Positions 3,768-11,367 of a DNA stretch of 21,654 nt are shown here, piece by piece. Made by a program: the position numbers and the translations under genes. Within the stretch, counting starts at the first letter, position 1, and each line of letters begins with the position of its first letter. The notes beneath the pieces are model-generated. The model saw only the letters and a program-made list of their open reading frames with translations, was not told where the DNA came from and did no database searches. The stretch is from the IMG/VR virus record IMGVR_UViG_3300024273_000493, positions 1-21,654 of that record, one strand, 5' to 3'. The stretch comes from a virus.

Positions 3768-5696
3768 TTAATACCCGTTATTCATACTGTACGTGCTTTC
3801 TACTGAAAATAAAGATTTTTCACCGCCAAAGTCTGTTGTAAGATCTGTTGACATTTTTACAGTAGAATAATAACCTTTTATACCGCTTATTTGGTTTCCA
3901 AATATAATCTCTCCGGCTGAAGCTAAAGAATCGTTTATTAAATTAGCAACATATTTGTTTTCTTTTAAATTAAAGCCAGAGTAATATCTAGGCAACGGTG
4001 GATTCGAGTTTGAAAATACAGCAGCATAATCATTACTACTTGTTTCTGCACTAAAAAACAATTCAGATACTTCAGTAAATGTAACGGGTTGTGATAAAAC
4101 TAAGTCGCCAGTGGAAACATCATATGAAACAACTGTGAGAAAACCTCCAGGTATTTGTTCGCCACTTACTTCACCACCTGCTAATATATAACCCCCTACA
4201 CTGTTCACGTCTAAAGTCATACTTGCACTATTCGTTACAATAGGAGCTAAAGCTTTTCCCTCTGTTAATATATATTCTCCTTCGTATAAACTAGAAATTT
4301 CTGCAGTGAAATCGTTGCTAATATTCCAATTACCACTTATTCCTAAAGTAGGACTTGTTTCGTCGCTAACAAAACTATCCACTTGCCAACCATTGCTTCC
4401 TTCGTAACCTATTGTTTTAAAAGATTTAGAGTTAGTAGGATTAGGATTAAAGACAAATGTAATAGAAGAAGGTTTTTCTACCCCATAAAAACTATTTCTA
4501 TTAACGCTGTTGTCATTGTGTCTCCACAGGTTTACACTTGAGTCAGTAAAAAGTAAAGGTACACTAGCAGAGAGTACTATAGAAGTATCAACAACCACCA
4601 CGCCTGTGTTAAACGACGTTGGCGTATAACTAAGAACGCTAACCGTTAATCCAGGTGGAATTAATGTTGAAGTTACTAAAGACCCAACAGGTATATCACC
4701 ATTGACAAATGTAACTGGAAACGAGGTAGATCCAAGACTATTAACTGTAGTTGAAGCAAGATCATTGTAGCTTGTTGTTTTAACAGAATAAAAATTATTT
4801 CTTAAACTAAACATTTGATCTGGTACATAACTATGAAAGCTAACCCAGCCTTTTGCTCTTTCATCAAAGACCAAAGTTGGATCTACTCTTCTTGTTGCTA
4901 TTAGTGGAGATCTACTTGTTCTACTTCGCTGTAAAGAAACAACATATTCACTTGAGTATATATCCCAAGCTCCTAATATTCTACCTTCGCCTGTTAAGCT
5001 AGTTGTTCTAACTAATTCATCTCTAAAAAAGTCTTTCATACCATAAGAAGATATCTCTTCAATGCCACCTGACAATCTTAAAACAGCGTTATTGTTTTTA
5101 TCTGAAAAATACTTATTATTACCATAAATAGCAAAGCTCTCTGGGTTTTTAGATATTCCGTATTTACCAGGATAAGGTTGAATAACACCTATAACTAAAT
5201 TACTAGCCGTAACTGTGCCTCCTCCTTCTGCTGAGTATATCGCATCTTTATCTATCAATGCTCTACTAACTTTTAACTCTTGAAAAACATTTAAGTTAGT
5301 ATCTTCTGCATAAAGTTTTTGTATCGACCCATTTGCTGGATCAGCAGATTTAGTTATATCTTCTCCTACTGAAAATACGTTTGTTTGGTTTATACCCGTC
5401 CTTGAATTAAATATACCCGAATATATTAAAGTATTAAATCTTCTAGTTCCATTAGGTTCATCTTCAACTAAATAAGCTTTAGCTCCAAAGTCAACAGATG
5501 TATTGTTGTATCCACCTCTAATTCTAGATTCTTCAATAGCCCAACTAGCGTCTCTATTTACATCAAGAACTGGTTGTCCACCAATATCCGTAGGTATTCC
5601 AAACGAACCATTCCAAATAACTTTCTCCGCGTTATTGTTTACTTTTTTTAAAAGAAAAGTATTGAAATATTTTACCTCTATTATTGAACCTGCCAT
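3768..5696 (-). CDS. Tail stabilization / propeller-type virion protein, C-terminal partner of the 1878-residue protein
   Basis: This 642-residue beta-rich protein contains landmarks that I recognise from large tail/nozzle-type proteins of environmental podoviruses. They are EESRIRGGYNNTSVDFGAKA (about 54-73), FNSRTGINQTNVFSVGEDIT (about 96-115), the blade-like VFDERAKGWVSFHSYVPDQM (about 275-294), and a closing segment with GNQISGIKGYYSTVKMSTD. Two copies of a small beta-module interrupt the core, at residues about 318-372 and 485-551. There is no signal peptide or membrane segment. It follows the 1878-residue gene by 34 bases and the cupin gene begins 10 bases after it. I infer that it builds part of the short tail or its propeller-like collar. 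In relatives this part may be fused to the preceding protein, which would explain the two adjacent genes here. Catalytic residues are not evident. Confidence 0.78.
   Translation of the reverse strand: MAGSIIEVKYFNTFLLKKVNNNAEKVIWNGSFGIPTDIGGQPVLDVNRDASWAIEESRIRGGYNNTSVDFGAKAYLVEDEPNGTRRFNTLIYSGIFNSRTGINQTNVFSVGEDITKSADPANGSIQKLYAEDTNLNVFQELKVSRALIDKDAIYSAEGGGTVTASNLVIGVIQPYPGKYGISKNPESFAIYGNNKYFSDKNNNAVLRLSGGIEEISSYGMKDFFRDELVRTTSLTGEGRILGAWDIYSSEYVVSLQRSRTSRSPLIATRRVDPTLVFDERAKGWVSFHSYVPDQMFSLRNNFYSVKTTSYNDLASTTVNSLGSTSFPVTFVNGDIPVGSLVTSTLIPPGLTVSVLSYTPTSFNTGVVVVDTSIVLSASVPLLFTDSSVNLWRHNDNSVNRNSFYGVEKPSSITFVFNPNPTNSKSFKTIGYEGSNGWQVDSFVSDETSPTLGISGNWNISNDFTAEISSLYEGEYILTEGKALAPIVTNSASMTLDVNSVGGYILAGGEVSGEQIPGGFLTVVSYDVSTGDLVLSQPVTFTEVSELFFSAETSSNDYAAVFSNSNPPLPRYYSGFNLKENKYVANLINDSLASAGEIIFGNQISGIKGYYSTVKMSTDLTTDFGGEKSLFSVESTYSMNNGY
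4044..4244 (-). repeat. Beta-module copy H in the 642-residue protein (residues about 485-551)
   Basis: The stretch reads YILAGGEVSGEQIPGGFLTV, then VVSYDVSTGDLVLSQPVTFT and a Phe-Phe strand. It shares the pattern G-x-x-VSG-x-x-IP-x-G-x-x-V, a loop, a second strand with LS, and a final hydrophobic strand with the modules in the 1878-residue protein. The repeat is at protein level; no extended DNA identity is visible. Confidence 0.5.
4581..4745 (-). repeat. Beta-module copy G in the 642-residue protein (residues about 318-372)
   Basis: The core PVGSLVTSTLIPPGLTVSVL is followed by SYTPTSFN and a strand ending LSASVPLLFTD. It lines up with copy B of the 1878-residue protein (SPGDLISGVGIPEGTTVVSF, then TPTNPSNQFN). 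This is the clearest cross-gene match of the module family. Confidence 0.55.
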
Positions 5697-5730
5697 ATTT
5701 AATTATTACTTATTTTATTTTTAAATTACT

Positions 5731-8700
5731 CTATATTATACTAAAGTTGAATTGAGACACATTGTCGGATCTAACGGCTTGATTACAAAATAAAGTAGGT
5801 GTGGCTAATACACCACCACCACAGCCATTAAAACATTGTTCATTGTTTTGCAATTGCGCTTGAACTCCTCTCGTGACTCCTAAAGGAGTAAGCTCAGGTT
5901 CGCTATTAACGTTATATGGTTGATCTGTAAACGGCGGCGCCCAGCCAGCGTAACTAACTCTGTCCAACACCCAAGAAGAAGCTAGCCACTGACTGTAACT
6001 ATACATACCCCATAAATCTTGTAAAGCCTGATAGTCATCACCAGGAGCAAAATACCAAGGACTAAGATTTGCGTTAAAGGCACCATGATAGCTGTAAGCA
6101 TATTGTGGAAACGTGCCATTTGGATCTAACACATATGGTGCTGAGGCGCTATTTGATGGCAAGCTTGTATCGTAGTAGAATTTTTTTTGTGGCGCAGAAA
6201 AGGGTGGGTTGGATATGTAAATATTTTTAACTCTAGGAGTTCTAGCGCCAACATCATTTCTTAAACCTTGATCTGGCCAACCATTTCCAGGAACATAAAC
6301 ACCACCATTCTCTTCTGCGTTTATATCTACAAATAACTTCTCACACCCACTCAACTCTCCTGCAAGGTTTTCGTAGGTCCATCTTTTTCCATCAGTACTT
6401 ACGTCTGTTACCTTTATTAAGCTATTTATTAAAGGGGGTTGCTCCCAGCTTGCTGCTTCTGGGAATAAGCTAAGATCTTGGAATTGAACTTTGTGACCAA
6501 CCGAACCTAGTGGAGTGTTTTTAGGTATTGTTATTGTATTAGAATTATTTTCTACTATTCCTGTAGAATAATCCACTAAATCTAGGCTTGGAGAAATTCT
6601 AGGTGCGCAACATGAATCCATGCCTGGTGCATTGTTTTGAAAAAATCCAGCTGCATACAGGTACCAACCTACGTCAGAACTACCAGCCCCAGGAGTGTCG
6701 GCTTTAATACGTATTAAAGTAGAAGGAAAATAATGCCACATAGTATTACCCCCCGAGTCGCGTAAACAGTTATTACCACAAACGTCTGGATCACCGTTTT
6801 GAACGTACCAATTGTTTGGACCCCGCCCAAATTGGTTGAAGGGATTGTTTCCATCTCCAATAGCGTTAAGCTCTAAAGCATCTGATTCTTGAAGTTTATT
6901 CCAAATATTATCTCTTCCTAGCTCAAGCCTCATGTCTATTTCAAATTGTTGAAACACTATGGTTCCAGCATCTTGAACAGCTAAAGTAACTATATACAAA
7001 GCAGCGGGCAACCCTGGATTTTGTGCAAATTTATTGAAAAGTTTTCCTGCAATTTGCCCTTGAAGAGATCCGCTTGACGATAATTCAAATATAGGATCTC
7101 CATTAAATAAAGCAAAATCCCCCGCGGCATTACCTATTCTTTGATCCCACACCTTTGTTCCTGCAAACTGACCGTTTTGATCTACAAACTCAACGTCTAA
7201 TTTAGATAGCGGTTGACCAGAGCTTCCTAAAACCTGATTAGCAGCTCCATTATTAGCGTATACTTGTGCTATAAGAGGTTTCGATTTTACTGTTCTAATT
7301 GGAACACTAGCTGGTATCTGGCTAGGTGGATTTGCACCTGGTCCATAATCTGTTTGATTCTGTGGAGAGTCTCCGTCAAAAGCTTCAATTAAAAAGAACT
7401 CAGGGCTCTCATTTCCTAAATTTGCAGTTCTAGTGACTATATTATCTTGACCATCTATTCTTATTTTAAAATTAAAAGTAAATTGTCTAGCAGGTTGATT
7501 GTTTCCATAATAAACATTGCCCCAGTAGTTAAGCACGTTATTAACACTTGGCACCGAATTCACCGAAGTTGTTTGTATTTGCCAAGGACCACCGCCAGTG
7601 TTAAATCCAGTGTCTATCAGTCTAAAGTAATCGTATTGAGTATTATCACCATTAACATTTAGAGGCGGGTTATTGTTGTCAAAAATACTATCTATTTCAA
7701 CAAAATCAGGATCAGGGGCACCAGTAACTGGATCGAGTCTATTTGGGTTGAGTGTTATTGTAACACCAAAGTTATCTACGACTCTAAAGCCATTACCATT
7801 TAATATAAATCCGTCTTGAGCTAAACCTTCTGTGAAATCACTAGGATTCCAAGTTATATTTGAACCTCCTGGTTGTGATTGATTGTTTAGTATAGAATCA
7901 TTAAGATCTGATACTACTCCAGAAGTAGAAGTTTCCCAGAATATATCAATTGCACTCTCAGTTGCTTCTGTTTCATAAACAGCTAAGTACTGTATTCCTG
8001 GAGTATCTAAAGCAAAAGCGGGTATTGAAGTGGTTCCTCCAGTTGGCGTAAACACTAGTTCAACTCCTGGTGTTAATGTAATTGTTCTAGTAAATCCGTC
8101 TTTTCCTTGTAAGGTTATGTCCATAACTCCAGCTGCAGGTATAGCTCCACCTCCAACAGCTGTGTTAGACAAAATGTAAGTGTCATCTGGAATACCTTGA
8201 CCTGAGACTAAAGCATTTATTAAAGAGGAAGTAGCAGGGTTATTAGACACGTTTGACACTGAAAACGAGTTTGAGGTTATTGGTGCTGTGTCACCTGGGT
8301 TTGCACCTATAATTTCTCCAGATGAAGGACTAAAGTTTGTATTTGCTAATTGTCCTATTTGAGATACCGTAGATATTCTAGCTACTAACGGATTAGACTC
8401 TAAAGAATAAAACTGAGGAAATAAATTTGGTTGCTTAGGATTTGATGGATCGAAATCAAACAAATCATTAAGCGTCGATATAACAGTAACGGTATCTGTA
8501 GATGTTCCTGGATAATACTGAACATTTGTTTCACCTGAAGTAATAGGGTTTGTTGGAATCACGTTTTGGACTCTACCAAACAACTGTATTGAACTTCTAA
8601 ACTGTCTTTGATCAGGACCTACTTCCGTTAAATCTCTAGGTATTTTATTTATATTATCGTTTATAAGAACAGCGTGAGAAGTTTGCCCTACTTCCAATGT

Positions 8701-11367
8701 TTGATCAATTGGATAAGAAGCCATTATACCAGGTAGGTATACATTATAGTATTCTTGCTCTGTTTGTTTTACAACTATCTTATATGAATACCATCCAAGA
8801 GGATTATACTCAAGGCTAGACGTATCGCCATTATATCTATTTCCATTTATAGGATTATTCACTAAAATCTTCAAAGAATTTCCAGGCCAATCAGTCACTC
8901 CTCCATTTAATTCTTCATCTATATAAGGAGAATATAAAGTAGATCCAGCGTACTCTCTACCATTTACAGTAATAGAGGTTTCGTTATTAGAAAGTATAAC
9001 ACTAGACTGTCTTCCATATCTATCTGATAAAACAAAACCGACTTGATAGTTTCTATTTCCTTTAACAGAACTACTAGGGTATTCTATCTTACTAGTTGTG
9101 TTTTCAACTTGTCCTCCAGGCTCAAACACAAGAATAACACTTCCCACTGGAAACGTTACCGTGTTATTTAAAGTTATAATTGCCTCTGTACTATTAGCAA
9201 GGGTGAAAGTAGCTATCTGCCCTATTGTAAAACTTGCTACTCCGTTTAATTGAACATTGAAAACACCTTCAGTGAGCTCTGTAACACCTGTAACAAGAAG
9301 TCCACTTGTACCAACTCCAGATAATTCAGATCCAATAGGTATAAAGTTAGAAGTGTTAGCTACGGTTATAATAGAATTAATGTTTGTATTGACAACATCA
9401 CTAGTTACACTTACACCTGACCCATTGTTATTAGTTGAAACAACTATTGTGCCGAATGGTATATTAACGCCAAACTCATTAGAAGTAACCACTGCGCCTG
9501 GAAAAAATCCTCCAGGAGGAAGAATTATTTGGCTAAGATCAATATCTAAAGGGTCACCTGCAGGTATAGTACCAGCTCCAATATAAGTAGCAGTTACTTC
9601 ATTTAAACTAAAATCAGCCTTAGCAGTTACCGCTACATTATAATCTATAAACGCTGGAGGATCTATTTTGTTTAAAAAATTACCATACATCACTCTATTA
9701 CCTGAAACCTCTTGAGCCAATGCTCTAACTGGTATTTTATCAAAAACCCTAACTAAATCTGCTGATGGAAGAGTTTTTGTTGGTTTAGTTGATCTGTATT
9801 TAAAAACAAAATAATTAGGACTACCTATTGTCAAAAGAACATCGTCATCAAGAGTCAAAGCTGTTGGACTGATTAATATGTCACCATTAAACTGGTTGCT
9901 AGGATTTGTTGGTGTAAAACTAACAACGGTGGTTCCTTCTGGTATACCAACACCTGATATTAAATCTCCAGGAGATATACCCCCTTGAATATTTTTAACT
10001 GGTATTATAGTACTAGGACCTACAACTGATATGTCAGTTAAACATACAGCCGATTGATTATATACTTTATCTATAGGAACTGTTTCTACAACTTTTACAG
10101 CTACAGCGTCAGATTCTTTATATAGTATATCTATTTCTTTTATTTTTAAAGCATCTTCTAACGTGTAGTTAGTGAAAGGAAGAGGTATTCTTAAGTCTAT
10201 ACTATTTACTTTATTTTCTACAAAATAAACAACACTACTTCTATAAGCTTCATCTTGATCGTTTTTTTCTTGACTTGGGCTTTCAGCAAACATGAAGTAA
10301 CCGTCTTGCTTAGGTATAAATGCTATTTGCGTGAAAGGAGCAAAAATAGAATATTCATTATCAACAAACCTAAATCTATAGCTAAATCTAGCAAACTTAC
10401 TTTCTAAATAGTCTGGATCACCTCCAAAAGTTGCTTGGTAATATGGGTTTGAATTAAAAACTAATACTTGATTATTAGCAACTGTTATAGCTCCGCTTAA
10501 AGTTATATCATAACTCAATGGAGTTCCTGTTGGTGGCACTTGAGCTATAGAGTTAACAACAAACCCCGTGTCTGTAAGCGTGTTGTCTTGTGTATTTAAC
10601 AAAGAAACCGTAGCTGGTTGTCCATAGACATTACTCGTGCCAACTTGAATTTCACCTATAATATTGTCTATGTTTATAACTGTTTGAGTAGTTTGTTGCG
10701 ATGTTGATAAAGCCCTTCCTCCGTTAGGTAAAAATAAACTACTAACATCTTTCATTGTAGTTTCATAATCCCCTGGGCTTAAAACGCTCTTCTCCCATAA
10801 CTCCATACAATCGTGCGGATTGTACTTAGCTACTGATATTTGATCTTCTGTTGTATAAAAAGTAGGAGAAGACTGTGGCGTAGGGTTAGCAAGTTTTATA
10901 TTTATAACCCTAGGCTGGTTTCTGTTATCTGTAAAAAATAATAGATTTTCTAAAACATTTACGCCAGTTATTTGATTAGTGGTAGAAAAGTTAAGAAACT
11001 CACCTTGAACTAACACTGTGGATAAATTAGATAATACGTTAGTGGATATTATAAAGTTTTTAGCAGTAGGATTATACACGTATCTATTAGGGTTCGCGTC
11101 TGTGTAATTAGTAAAAAACAAATAAACAGTATTGTTTATTTCGTCTGAAAAAGTACCTATACATATAATATTTGAAACTCCAGTTAAAGCCTTGTAATCT
11201 TGTATTGCTACGTTGCCTAATATGTTCTCTAAGCTACCTACCTTAGATCCTTCAGATTTACTTATTTGAGCATTTTGCGCATCTCTGTATTCACCCTCTG
11301 GTAATATACGTGCATCCAAGTCTTTGTTCATCTTGGATTTTAAAAAAGTATTTTGAACTTTAGCCAT
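5731..11367 (-). CDS. Giant tail/nozzle-type virion protein with inserted beta-modules (1878 residues)
   Basis: The N-terminus (about 3-60) has the signature MNKDLDARILPEGEYRDAQN followed by SEGSKVGSLENILGN. This resembles the opening of propeller-type tail proteins (compare T7 gp12 nozzle and P22 gp10), in which the phage tail tube or collar is built from beta-propellers. Further blade-like strands follow to about residue 580 and again around 730-1000. The core is interrupted by small beta-modules at about 452-512, 585-735 and 1030-1110. A cadherin/Ig-like stretch lies around 1320-1475. The last 350 residues are aromatic- and Cys-rich, holding 8 of the 11 cysteines (for example DVCGNNC, SCCAP, CFNGCGGG), and may be a separate receptor-facing domain. 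It starts 6 bases after the connector gene stops. The gene fills 26% of the window. The role is inferred; a pure fibre protein is less likely given the N-terminal signature. Confidence 0.8.
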   Translation of the reverse strand: MAKVQNTFLKSKMNKDLDARILPEGEYRDAQNAQISKSEGSKVGSLENILGNVAIQDYKALTGVSNIICIGTFSDEINNTVYLFFTNYTDANPNRYVYNPTAKNFIISTNVLSNLSTVLVQGEFLNFSTTNQITGVNVLENLLFFTDNRNQPRVINIKLANPTPQSSPTFYTTEDQISVAKYNPHDCMELWEKSVLSPGDYETTMKDVSSLFLPNGGRALSTSQQTTQTVINIDNIIGEIQVGTSNVYGQPATVSLLNTQDNTLTDTGFVVNSIAQVPPTGTPLSYDITLSGAITVANNQVLVFNSNPYYQATFGGDPDYLESKFARFSYRFRFVDNEYSIFAPFTQIAFIPKQDGYFMFAESPSQEKNDQDEAYRSSVVYFVENKVNSIDLRIPLPFTNYTLEDALKIKEIDILYKESDAVAVKVVETVPIDKVYNQSAVCLTDISVVGPSTIIPVKNIQGGISPGDLISGVGIPEGTTVVSFTPTNPSNQFNGDILISPTALTLDDDVLLTIGSPNYFVFKYRSTKPTKTLPSADLVRVFDKIPVRALAQEVSGNRVMYGNFLNKIDPPAFIDYNVAVTAKADFSLNEVTATYIGAGTIPAGDPLDIDLSQIILPPGGFFPGAVVTSNEFGVNIPFGTIVVSTNNNGSGVSVTSDVVNTNINSIITVANTSNFIPIGSELSGVGTSGLLVTGVTELTEGVFNVQLNGVASFTIGQIATFTLANSTEAIITLNNTVTFPVGSVILVFEPGGQVENTTSKIEYPSSSVKGNRNYQVGFVLSDRYGRQSSVILSNNETSITVNGREYAGSTLYSPYIDEELNGGVTDWPGNSLKILVNNPINGNRYNGDTSSLEYNPLGWYSYKIVVKQTEQEYYNVYLPGIMASYPIDQTLEVGQTSHAVLINDNINKIPRDLTEVGPDQRQFRSSIQLFGRVQNVIPTNPITSGETNVQYYPGTSTDTVTVISTLNDLFDFDPSNPKQPNLFPQFYSLESNPLVARISTVSQIGQLANTNFSPSSGEIIGANPGDTAPITSNSFSVSNVSNNPATSSLINALVSGQGIPDDTYILSNTAVGGGAIPAAGVMDITLQGKDGFTRTITLTPGVELVFTPTGGTTSIPAFALDTPGIQYLAVYETEATESAIDIFWETSTSGVVSDLNDSILNNQSQPGGSNITWNPSDFTEGLAQDGFILNGNGFRVVDNFGVTITLNPNRLDPVTGAPDPDFVEIDSIFDNNNPPLNVNGDNTQYDYFRLIDTGFNTGGGPWQIQTTSVNSVPSVNNVLNYWGNVYYGNNQPARQFTFNFKIRIDGQDNIVTRTANLGNESPEFFLIEAFDGDSPQNQTDYGPGANPPSQIPASVPIRTVKSKPLIAQVYANNGAANQVLGSSGQPLSKLDVEFVDQNGQFAGTKVWDQRIGNAAGDFALFNGDPIFELSSSGSLQGQIAGKLFNKFAQNPGLPAALYIVTLAVQDAGTIVFQQFEIDMRLELGRDNIWNKLQESDALELNAIGDGNNPFNQFGRGPNNWYVQNGDPDVCGNNCLRDSGGNTMWHYFPSTLIRIKADTPGAGSSDVGWYLYAAGFFQNNAPGMDSCCAPRISPSLDLVDYSTGIVENNSNTITIPKNTPLGSVGHKVQFQDLSLFPEAASWEQPPLINSLIKVTDVSTDGKRWTYENLAGELSGCEKLFVDINAEENGGVYVPGNGWPDQGLRNDVGARTPRVKNIYISNPPFSAPQKKFYYDTSLPSNSASAPYVLDPNGTFPQYAYSYHGAFNANLSPWYFAPGDDYQALQDLWGMYSYSQWLASSWVLDRVSYAGWAPPFTDQPYNVNSEPELTPLGVTRGVQAQLQNNEQCFNGCGGGVLATPTLFCNQAVRSDNVSQFNFSII
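8038..8280 (-). repeat. Beta-module copy F in the 1878-residue protein (residues about 1030-1110)
   Basis: The motif LVSGQGIPDDTYILSNTAVG (from residue 1053) is followed by GGAIPAAGVMDITLQG and a closing strand GVELVFTP. The GxGxIPAxxxxDIxLxx phrase recurs near residue 594 in the same protein (GAGTIPAGDPLDIDLSQ), with partial DNA similarity around 8120-8150 and 9550-9580. Confidence 0.55.
9120..9615 (-). repeat. Tandem beta-modules C, D and a partial E in the 1878-residue protein (residues about 585-735)
   Basis: Two or more modules follow one another. The first has GAVVTSNEFGVNIPFGTIVV, and the second has FIPIGSELSGVGTSGLLVTG ending in FTIGQIATFTLA. A shorter remnant, IITLNNTVTFPVGSVILVFE, comes next. 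Spacing between equivalent Gly/Pro positions is about 40-60 residues. DNA copies have diverged, so this is an old duplication or repeated acquisition. Confidence 0.55.
9832..10014 (-). repeat. Beta-module copy B in the 1878-residue protein (residues about 452-512)
   Basis: The module reads IIPVKNIQGGISPGDLISGV, then GIPEGTTVVSFTPTNPSNQF, and closes with strands ending LDDDVLLTIGSP. It is the best-preserved example of the pattern: strand, (S/P)xGxxxSGxGIPxGTxVxS, variable loop, LS-type strand, hydrophobic closing strand. Confidence 0.55.

Follow-up and report, generated by a model that had tools for sequence, protein, structure and literature searches.

In phage crAss001 the muzzle is a hexamer located at the tail tip; its crass domain lies there with loops exposed and probably touches the cell surface, and the length of the muzzle varies via insertions in the crass/IG2 region, which are able to affect surface properties (PMC10172136, here and below after the available parts of that paper). 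crAss001 gp44 is a propeller-containing tail-tip protein of the same family as the two proteins considered here, which are encoded in a virus record of 21,654 bases (the window, that is, the whole stretch of DNA analysed). However, gp44 is encoded by one gene, comprises 1371 aa and has no detectable copy of the module described below, whereas in the window there are two genes, both with modules.

It is known that Ig-like domains are carried by phage structural proteins, for example T4 Hoc. These domains and our module are both small, all-beta, varied in copy number and situated on virion proteins, but the module differs from them in its predicted six-strand barrel, the absence of a significant Ig match, the insertion into loops and the nesting of copies within each other. 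The K1F and phi92 endosialidases, enzymes built on a propeller into which a small barrel is inserted, resemble the muzzle in this combination within a tail protein; the structural similarity is weak, and no sequence relation between the module and these enzymes was found. Ig-like domains in phage structural proteins are also treated in PMC10385173, and domain mosaicism of phage proteins, with fragments common to otherwise unrelated ones, in PMC10684548 (both in the parts available). In contrast to such mosaicism, the module copies at a given site are orthologues of long standing and show no recent shuffling.

The split muzzle and its module copies

P0001 (5731..11367, 1878 aa) and P0002 (3768..5696, 642 aa), which like all their module copies below are on the minus strand, are the two halves of one split crAss-like muzzle (tail-tip gatekeeper) protein, P0001 being its N-terminal part and P0002 its C-terminal part with the propeller. 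In P0001, Pfam crAss_MUZ covers the first 174 residues (1.4e-12, 47 bits, curated cut-off 27), the PHROG match is phrog_14478 (3.8e-39), and profile alignment leads to residues 1-429 of crAss001 gp44 (3.8e-42). The protein comprises the ring-joining region, blades 1-2, IG1, the first part of IG2 and the crass-domain region; the latter gave no profile alignment to the solved muzzle. P0002 matches the last part of crAss_MUZ (28.5 bits, cut-off 27) and crAss_MUZ_C (43.8 bits), and aligns with gp44 residues 1039-1286 (5.6e-39). Our structure model of the muzzle covers P0002, i.e. the C part only, as a monomer (mean pLDDT 76); by Foldseek it matches the crAss001 muzzle (7qok, 4.2e-11; 7qol, 3.5e-10), with a low full-chain TM, and also resembles podophage tail proteins. 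Whole P0001 and P0002 yielded crAss_MUZ models only in Pfam, and neither phmmer searches with both proteins nor a profile of P0002 homologues matched PDB sequences.

The two genes have further virion genes, terminase and portal included, as neighbours in the window. The muzzle is split into two genes in the window as well as in the related contigs that were found, and a single gene encodes it in five isolates (crAss001, phi38:1, elemo, Gundel, MW202828). Maribacter phage Panino, a cultured marine relative that carries a module, likewise has it in two genes, and in one contig (L027) the N part is divided once more (978 + 796 aa).

The module family is approximately 76 residues long. The starting profile was built from the P0002 476-552 insert of P0002 homologues alone, no other copy being included, and it found P0002 306-387 (iE 2.6e-4) and P0001 435-493 (8e-7). 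With the iterated profile the total is seven copies, five in P0001 and two in P0002, and these copies share common ancestry. Real copies, the two parts of the nested pair S3 excepted, score 21.7-56.1 bits, compared with 9.7 bits for the best domain among 400 shuffled proteins. An earlier note on this DNA had listed five segments across both genes as repeats of one module. Profile cross-detection found the module in all five; the count has to be raised, as one segment holds two copies, giving six, and the copy at 10447-10725 had been missed.

The first copy, S1 (10447..10725; P0001 215-307; iE 2.2e-6, 23.8 bits), lies near the start of the IG1-like region, and its nearest relative is the S1 copy of another contig (L021). 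S2 (9817..10065; P0001 435-517; iE 1.9e-16), inside the IG1-like region, is the canonical copy with the full motif: the pattern GxxVSGxGIPxGTxVxS, proposed by the earlier note as common to all segments, occurs without mismatch only at 9919-9969, the other copies deviating at 2 to 4 or more positions. S3 is a nested pair, described below. S4 (8041..8322; P0001 1016-1109; iE 1.1e-5, 21.7 bits) is in the crass-domain region. In P0002, S6 (4536..4781; residues 306-387; iE 8.5e-10) takes the place of a turn of the propeller part, and S8 (4041..4271; residues 476-552; iE 5.7e-15) has a pLDDT of about 87-96 in the P0002 model. The capsid protein P0006 did not match the module profile; residues 62-140 of P0003 (11374-12597) gave 5.8 bits (E 0.93), probably by chance.

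The S2 segment alone was predicted by AlphaFold2 as a six-strand barrel (pLDDT 87), and S6 and S8 have the same strand order in the full P0002 model as the single module. A Foldseek search of the single module against the PDB gave no match, to SH3-, OB- or EF-Tu-type small barrels or otherwise, below E 0.001 (best TM about 0.6); the weak matches included the phi92 and K1F endosialidases (E 0.035-0.2, TM about 0.45-0.47) amid ATPase and elongation-factor barrels. Among predicted phage proteins, TM values reached about 0.6-0.7, cyanophage proteins and a capsid protein being included. The module profile found nothing below E 0.16 in PDB sequences, and the module matched no family in Pfam or NCBIfam. 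For 106 modules compared with Pfam, the best listed Ig-type match was Big_9 (0.086, one member), and neither BACON nor carbohydrate-binding families were among those listed; BACON was also absent from P0001 and P0002 at E up to 1.

Insertion sites, nesting and history of the copies

The earlier note had proposed an alignment with related phages, to see if there are defined insertion points with or without a copy; the comparison with such phages revealed fixed sites. The residues flanking S6 are direct neighbours in crAss001 (1233/1234) and in phi38:1 (1110/1111) in the profile alignment, those flanking S8 are neighbours in phi38:1 (1203/1204) and in elemo, and those flanking S2 map to crAss001 269/276. 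With the crAss001 domain limits taken from PMC10172136, S1 and S2 are situated at or in the IG1 match, S3 in IG2 and S4 in the crass-domain region. The core is indeed interrupted, as had been noticed, although a propeller setting applies only to the two copies in the 642-aa protein and not to those in P0001. Most P0002 homologues lacking S6 have three residues instead, the empty site being a short turn, and those lacking S8 have 6 to 36 residues over the aligned span.

Occupancy varies between homologues, with 17 patterns among the 82 N-part and 6 among the 78 C-part homologues. S2 is occupied in 65 and S3 in 66 of the 82 N-part homologues; the S4 site holds one copy in 41/82 and two in 21/82, and the S8 site may also carry two. 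No copy at all is present in 33 of the 78 C-part and 11 of the 82 N-part homologues. Empty sites are seen in phi38:1, crAss001, elemo and one contig (L101), and no module was detectable in the muzzles of the five single-gene isolates.

The S3 region (9118-9609) is a nested pair, with the inner module inside the beta4-beta5 hairpin of the outer one. The outer module consists of an N-terminal part (9430..9609; P0001 587-646; the first part of the profile) and a C-terminal part (9118..9198; 724-750; profile positions 48-71), separated by the inner module (9199..9429; 647-723), which alone has a weak score of 11.4 bits. The profile matches in this region comprise a hit dominated by the N-terminal part (587-669 with the iterated profile, iE 0.06, weak), a weak full-profile hit and a C-terminal fragment, an order that is clearer in relatives. 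Hence the earlier note was right in placing a module at 9120-9615, but this is not a single unit. The two parts of this pair score low (9.6-14.7 bits and 2.7-7.3 bits), and we accepted them because the outer S3 module rises from 14.7 to 31.4 bits once 647-723 is excised, and because the inner modules of relatives, which are strong (42-58 bits), align with the S3 inner module. These relatives (L090, L084, L001, L007) have both modules, and in two others (L002, L013) the outer module occurs alone. As tandem controls also gain score in the excision scan, it is not decisive alone, and the nesting rests mainly on the outer-only relatives and on the shortened first hit. Among the adjacent pairs of muzzle homologues, this first hit stops no later than profile position 58 in 30 of 34 (with a trailing C-terminal fragment scored in 7 of the 34), compared with 2 of 35 bacterial adjacent pairs, where tandem copies are nearly complete. 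In the AlphaFold2 module model, the insertion point falls in the hairpin joining strands 4 and 5.

For 252 of the 259 modules compared, the closest relative was a same-site module of another phage (at most 72 in 1000 label shuffles), although the related contigs are not independent, and so this ratio overstates the number of events. Therefore, each site received its insertion long ago, and the copies were then passed on, apart from losses and some doublings. S6 of P0002 departs from this, its nearest relative in this test being an S8 module of another contig (L049). Of the spread by duplication or recombination proposed earlier, an ancient duplication or transfer is retained, whereas recent spread or shuffling is not supported.

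Occurrence of the module outside the muzzle

Loci outside the muzzle were gathered with a DNA pattern for V[ST]GxGIPxGTxV; in loci selected in this way the motif itself is not independent evidence, the support over the rest of the domain is partly independent, and the sample is biased. The pattern matched at least 120 viral and 97 bacterial stretches, and the motif was in an open frame in 119 of the viral matches listed and in 93 bacterial ones. The profile supports a module in 89 viral loci among the matches listed and in 73 bacterial genome loci. In a tblastn search with the module consensus, only Roseobacter phage CRP-345 was found. In phages, the module is carried by the head closure protein Hc3, a SU10-type adaptor, head decoration and other virion proteins; in bacteria, by a BapA/LapF-type adhesin and a beta-strand repeat protein. 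Hc3 of one locus (L153) is interrupted by a module; in a relative with flanking identities of 69% and 74%, roughly ten residues occupy this position.

Several loci carry more than one module. Four Verrucomicrobia contigs (L244, L246, L265, L307) have very long open frames with three to five modules each. A 1187-aa virion protein of phrog_5838 (L147:2348-5908) has two, and four modules of the muzzle set weakly match the same phrog. A 526-aa protein of a bacterial contig (L297:3452-5029) has two modules, matches a phage collar domain and, weakly, CBM5/12, and is possibly a prophage tail protein.

The chances seem to us about even that these loci and the muzzle reflect one mobile beta-barrel domain of phages and bacterial surface proteins, whose insertion targets are loops of muzzle, head-closure, adaptor and decoration proteins as well as its own beta4-beta5 hairpin, with nested stacks remodelling virion surfaces.

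Possible roles of the module

The most likely explanation, and one we moderately favour, is that a single inserted barrel family provides the muzzle with a variable scaffold on the surface of the tail tip. The module would be an independently folding six-strand barrel set in loops of the muzzle, where it would replace a turn with the host fold undisturbed; its beta4-beta5 hairpin could likewise take up a further module, yielding nested pairs. Copies on the outside of the tail tip would then alter its surface and bulk, and seven per subunit would amount to 42 in total, provided that the muzzle is hexameric here too. By analogy with the crAss001 structure (PMC10172136, as above), the modules may thus be exposed and affect the contact with the host, presumably as a variable, low-charge scaffold at the host envelope and not as a lectin with one fixed ligand. 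The cross-detection of copies, their presence or absence at fixed sites, the predicted fold, the nesting, the Hc3 case and the low conservation of the modules support this scaffold: in S8 the mean identity is 33%, compared with 66% for the core, and it is lower than that of the core in 38 of 38 homologues. At the same time, insertions that are old and orthologous are equally compatible with a structural or neutral role and with surface variation.

Next in order is a nomadic domain that itself has no function and is tolerated by the loops, with copies slowly gained, lost and duplicated. In its favour are the occurrence in unrelated virion and bacterial proteins, the low charge, the lack of conserved surface residues and the absence of all copies from some relatives. 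Nevertheless, we consider it rather unlikely, as S2 and S3 are retained in most homologues and the hydrophobic core positions are conserved, implying selection at least on folding.

It is less probable still that the module is a carbohydrate-binding one, attaching the tail tip to glycans of the host surface. The tail-tip position of the muzzle (by PMC10172136), the weak likeness to the two endosialidases and the occurrence in bacterial adhesin-like proteins would agree with glycan binding, but the Foldseek matches are not significant and are mixed with barrels of ATPases and elongation factors, and a carbohydrate-binding Pfam match is absent. The composition also argues against it: W+Y+H make up 1.9% of the modules compared with 7.0% of the core, the charge is half that of the core, and strong conservation is seen at positions that are Gly, Thr or hydrophobic and look structural, with no conserved aromatic or polar residues. 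Hence no single conserved ligand is indicated.

If the modules were structural pegs stabilising contacts among muzzle subunits or with other tail parts, one could explain the conserved orthologous sites and the occurrence of modules in decoration, adaptor and head-closure proteins, to which they could add bulk that holds the virion together. However, presence or absence at the same site among relatives and low conservation are unlike interface elements, making pegs improbable. Finally, it is hardly credible that we are dealing with normal blades of the propeller or repeats of the core and not with an inserted module, since, although the segments sit in beta-rich proteins including a propeller, the core is uninterrupted in homologues without these segments and the module is predicted to fold alone; for S6 and S8 the exact empty sites rule out the blade reading.

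Returning to the scaffold, the variation in muzzle length noted in the available part of PMC10172136 is, in this related group, due to insertions of one domain family. The defined sites and the self-nesting rule make the role of muzzle insertions testable. As the domain is recurrent and yet has no Pfam or NCBIfam model, a family model would aid the annotation of virion and bacterial surface proteins.
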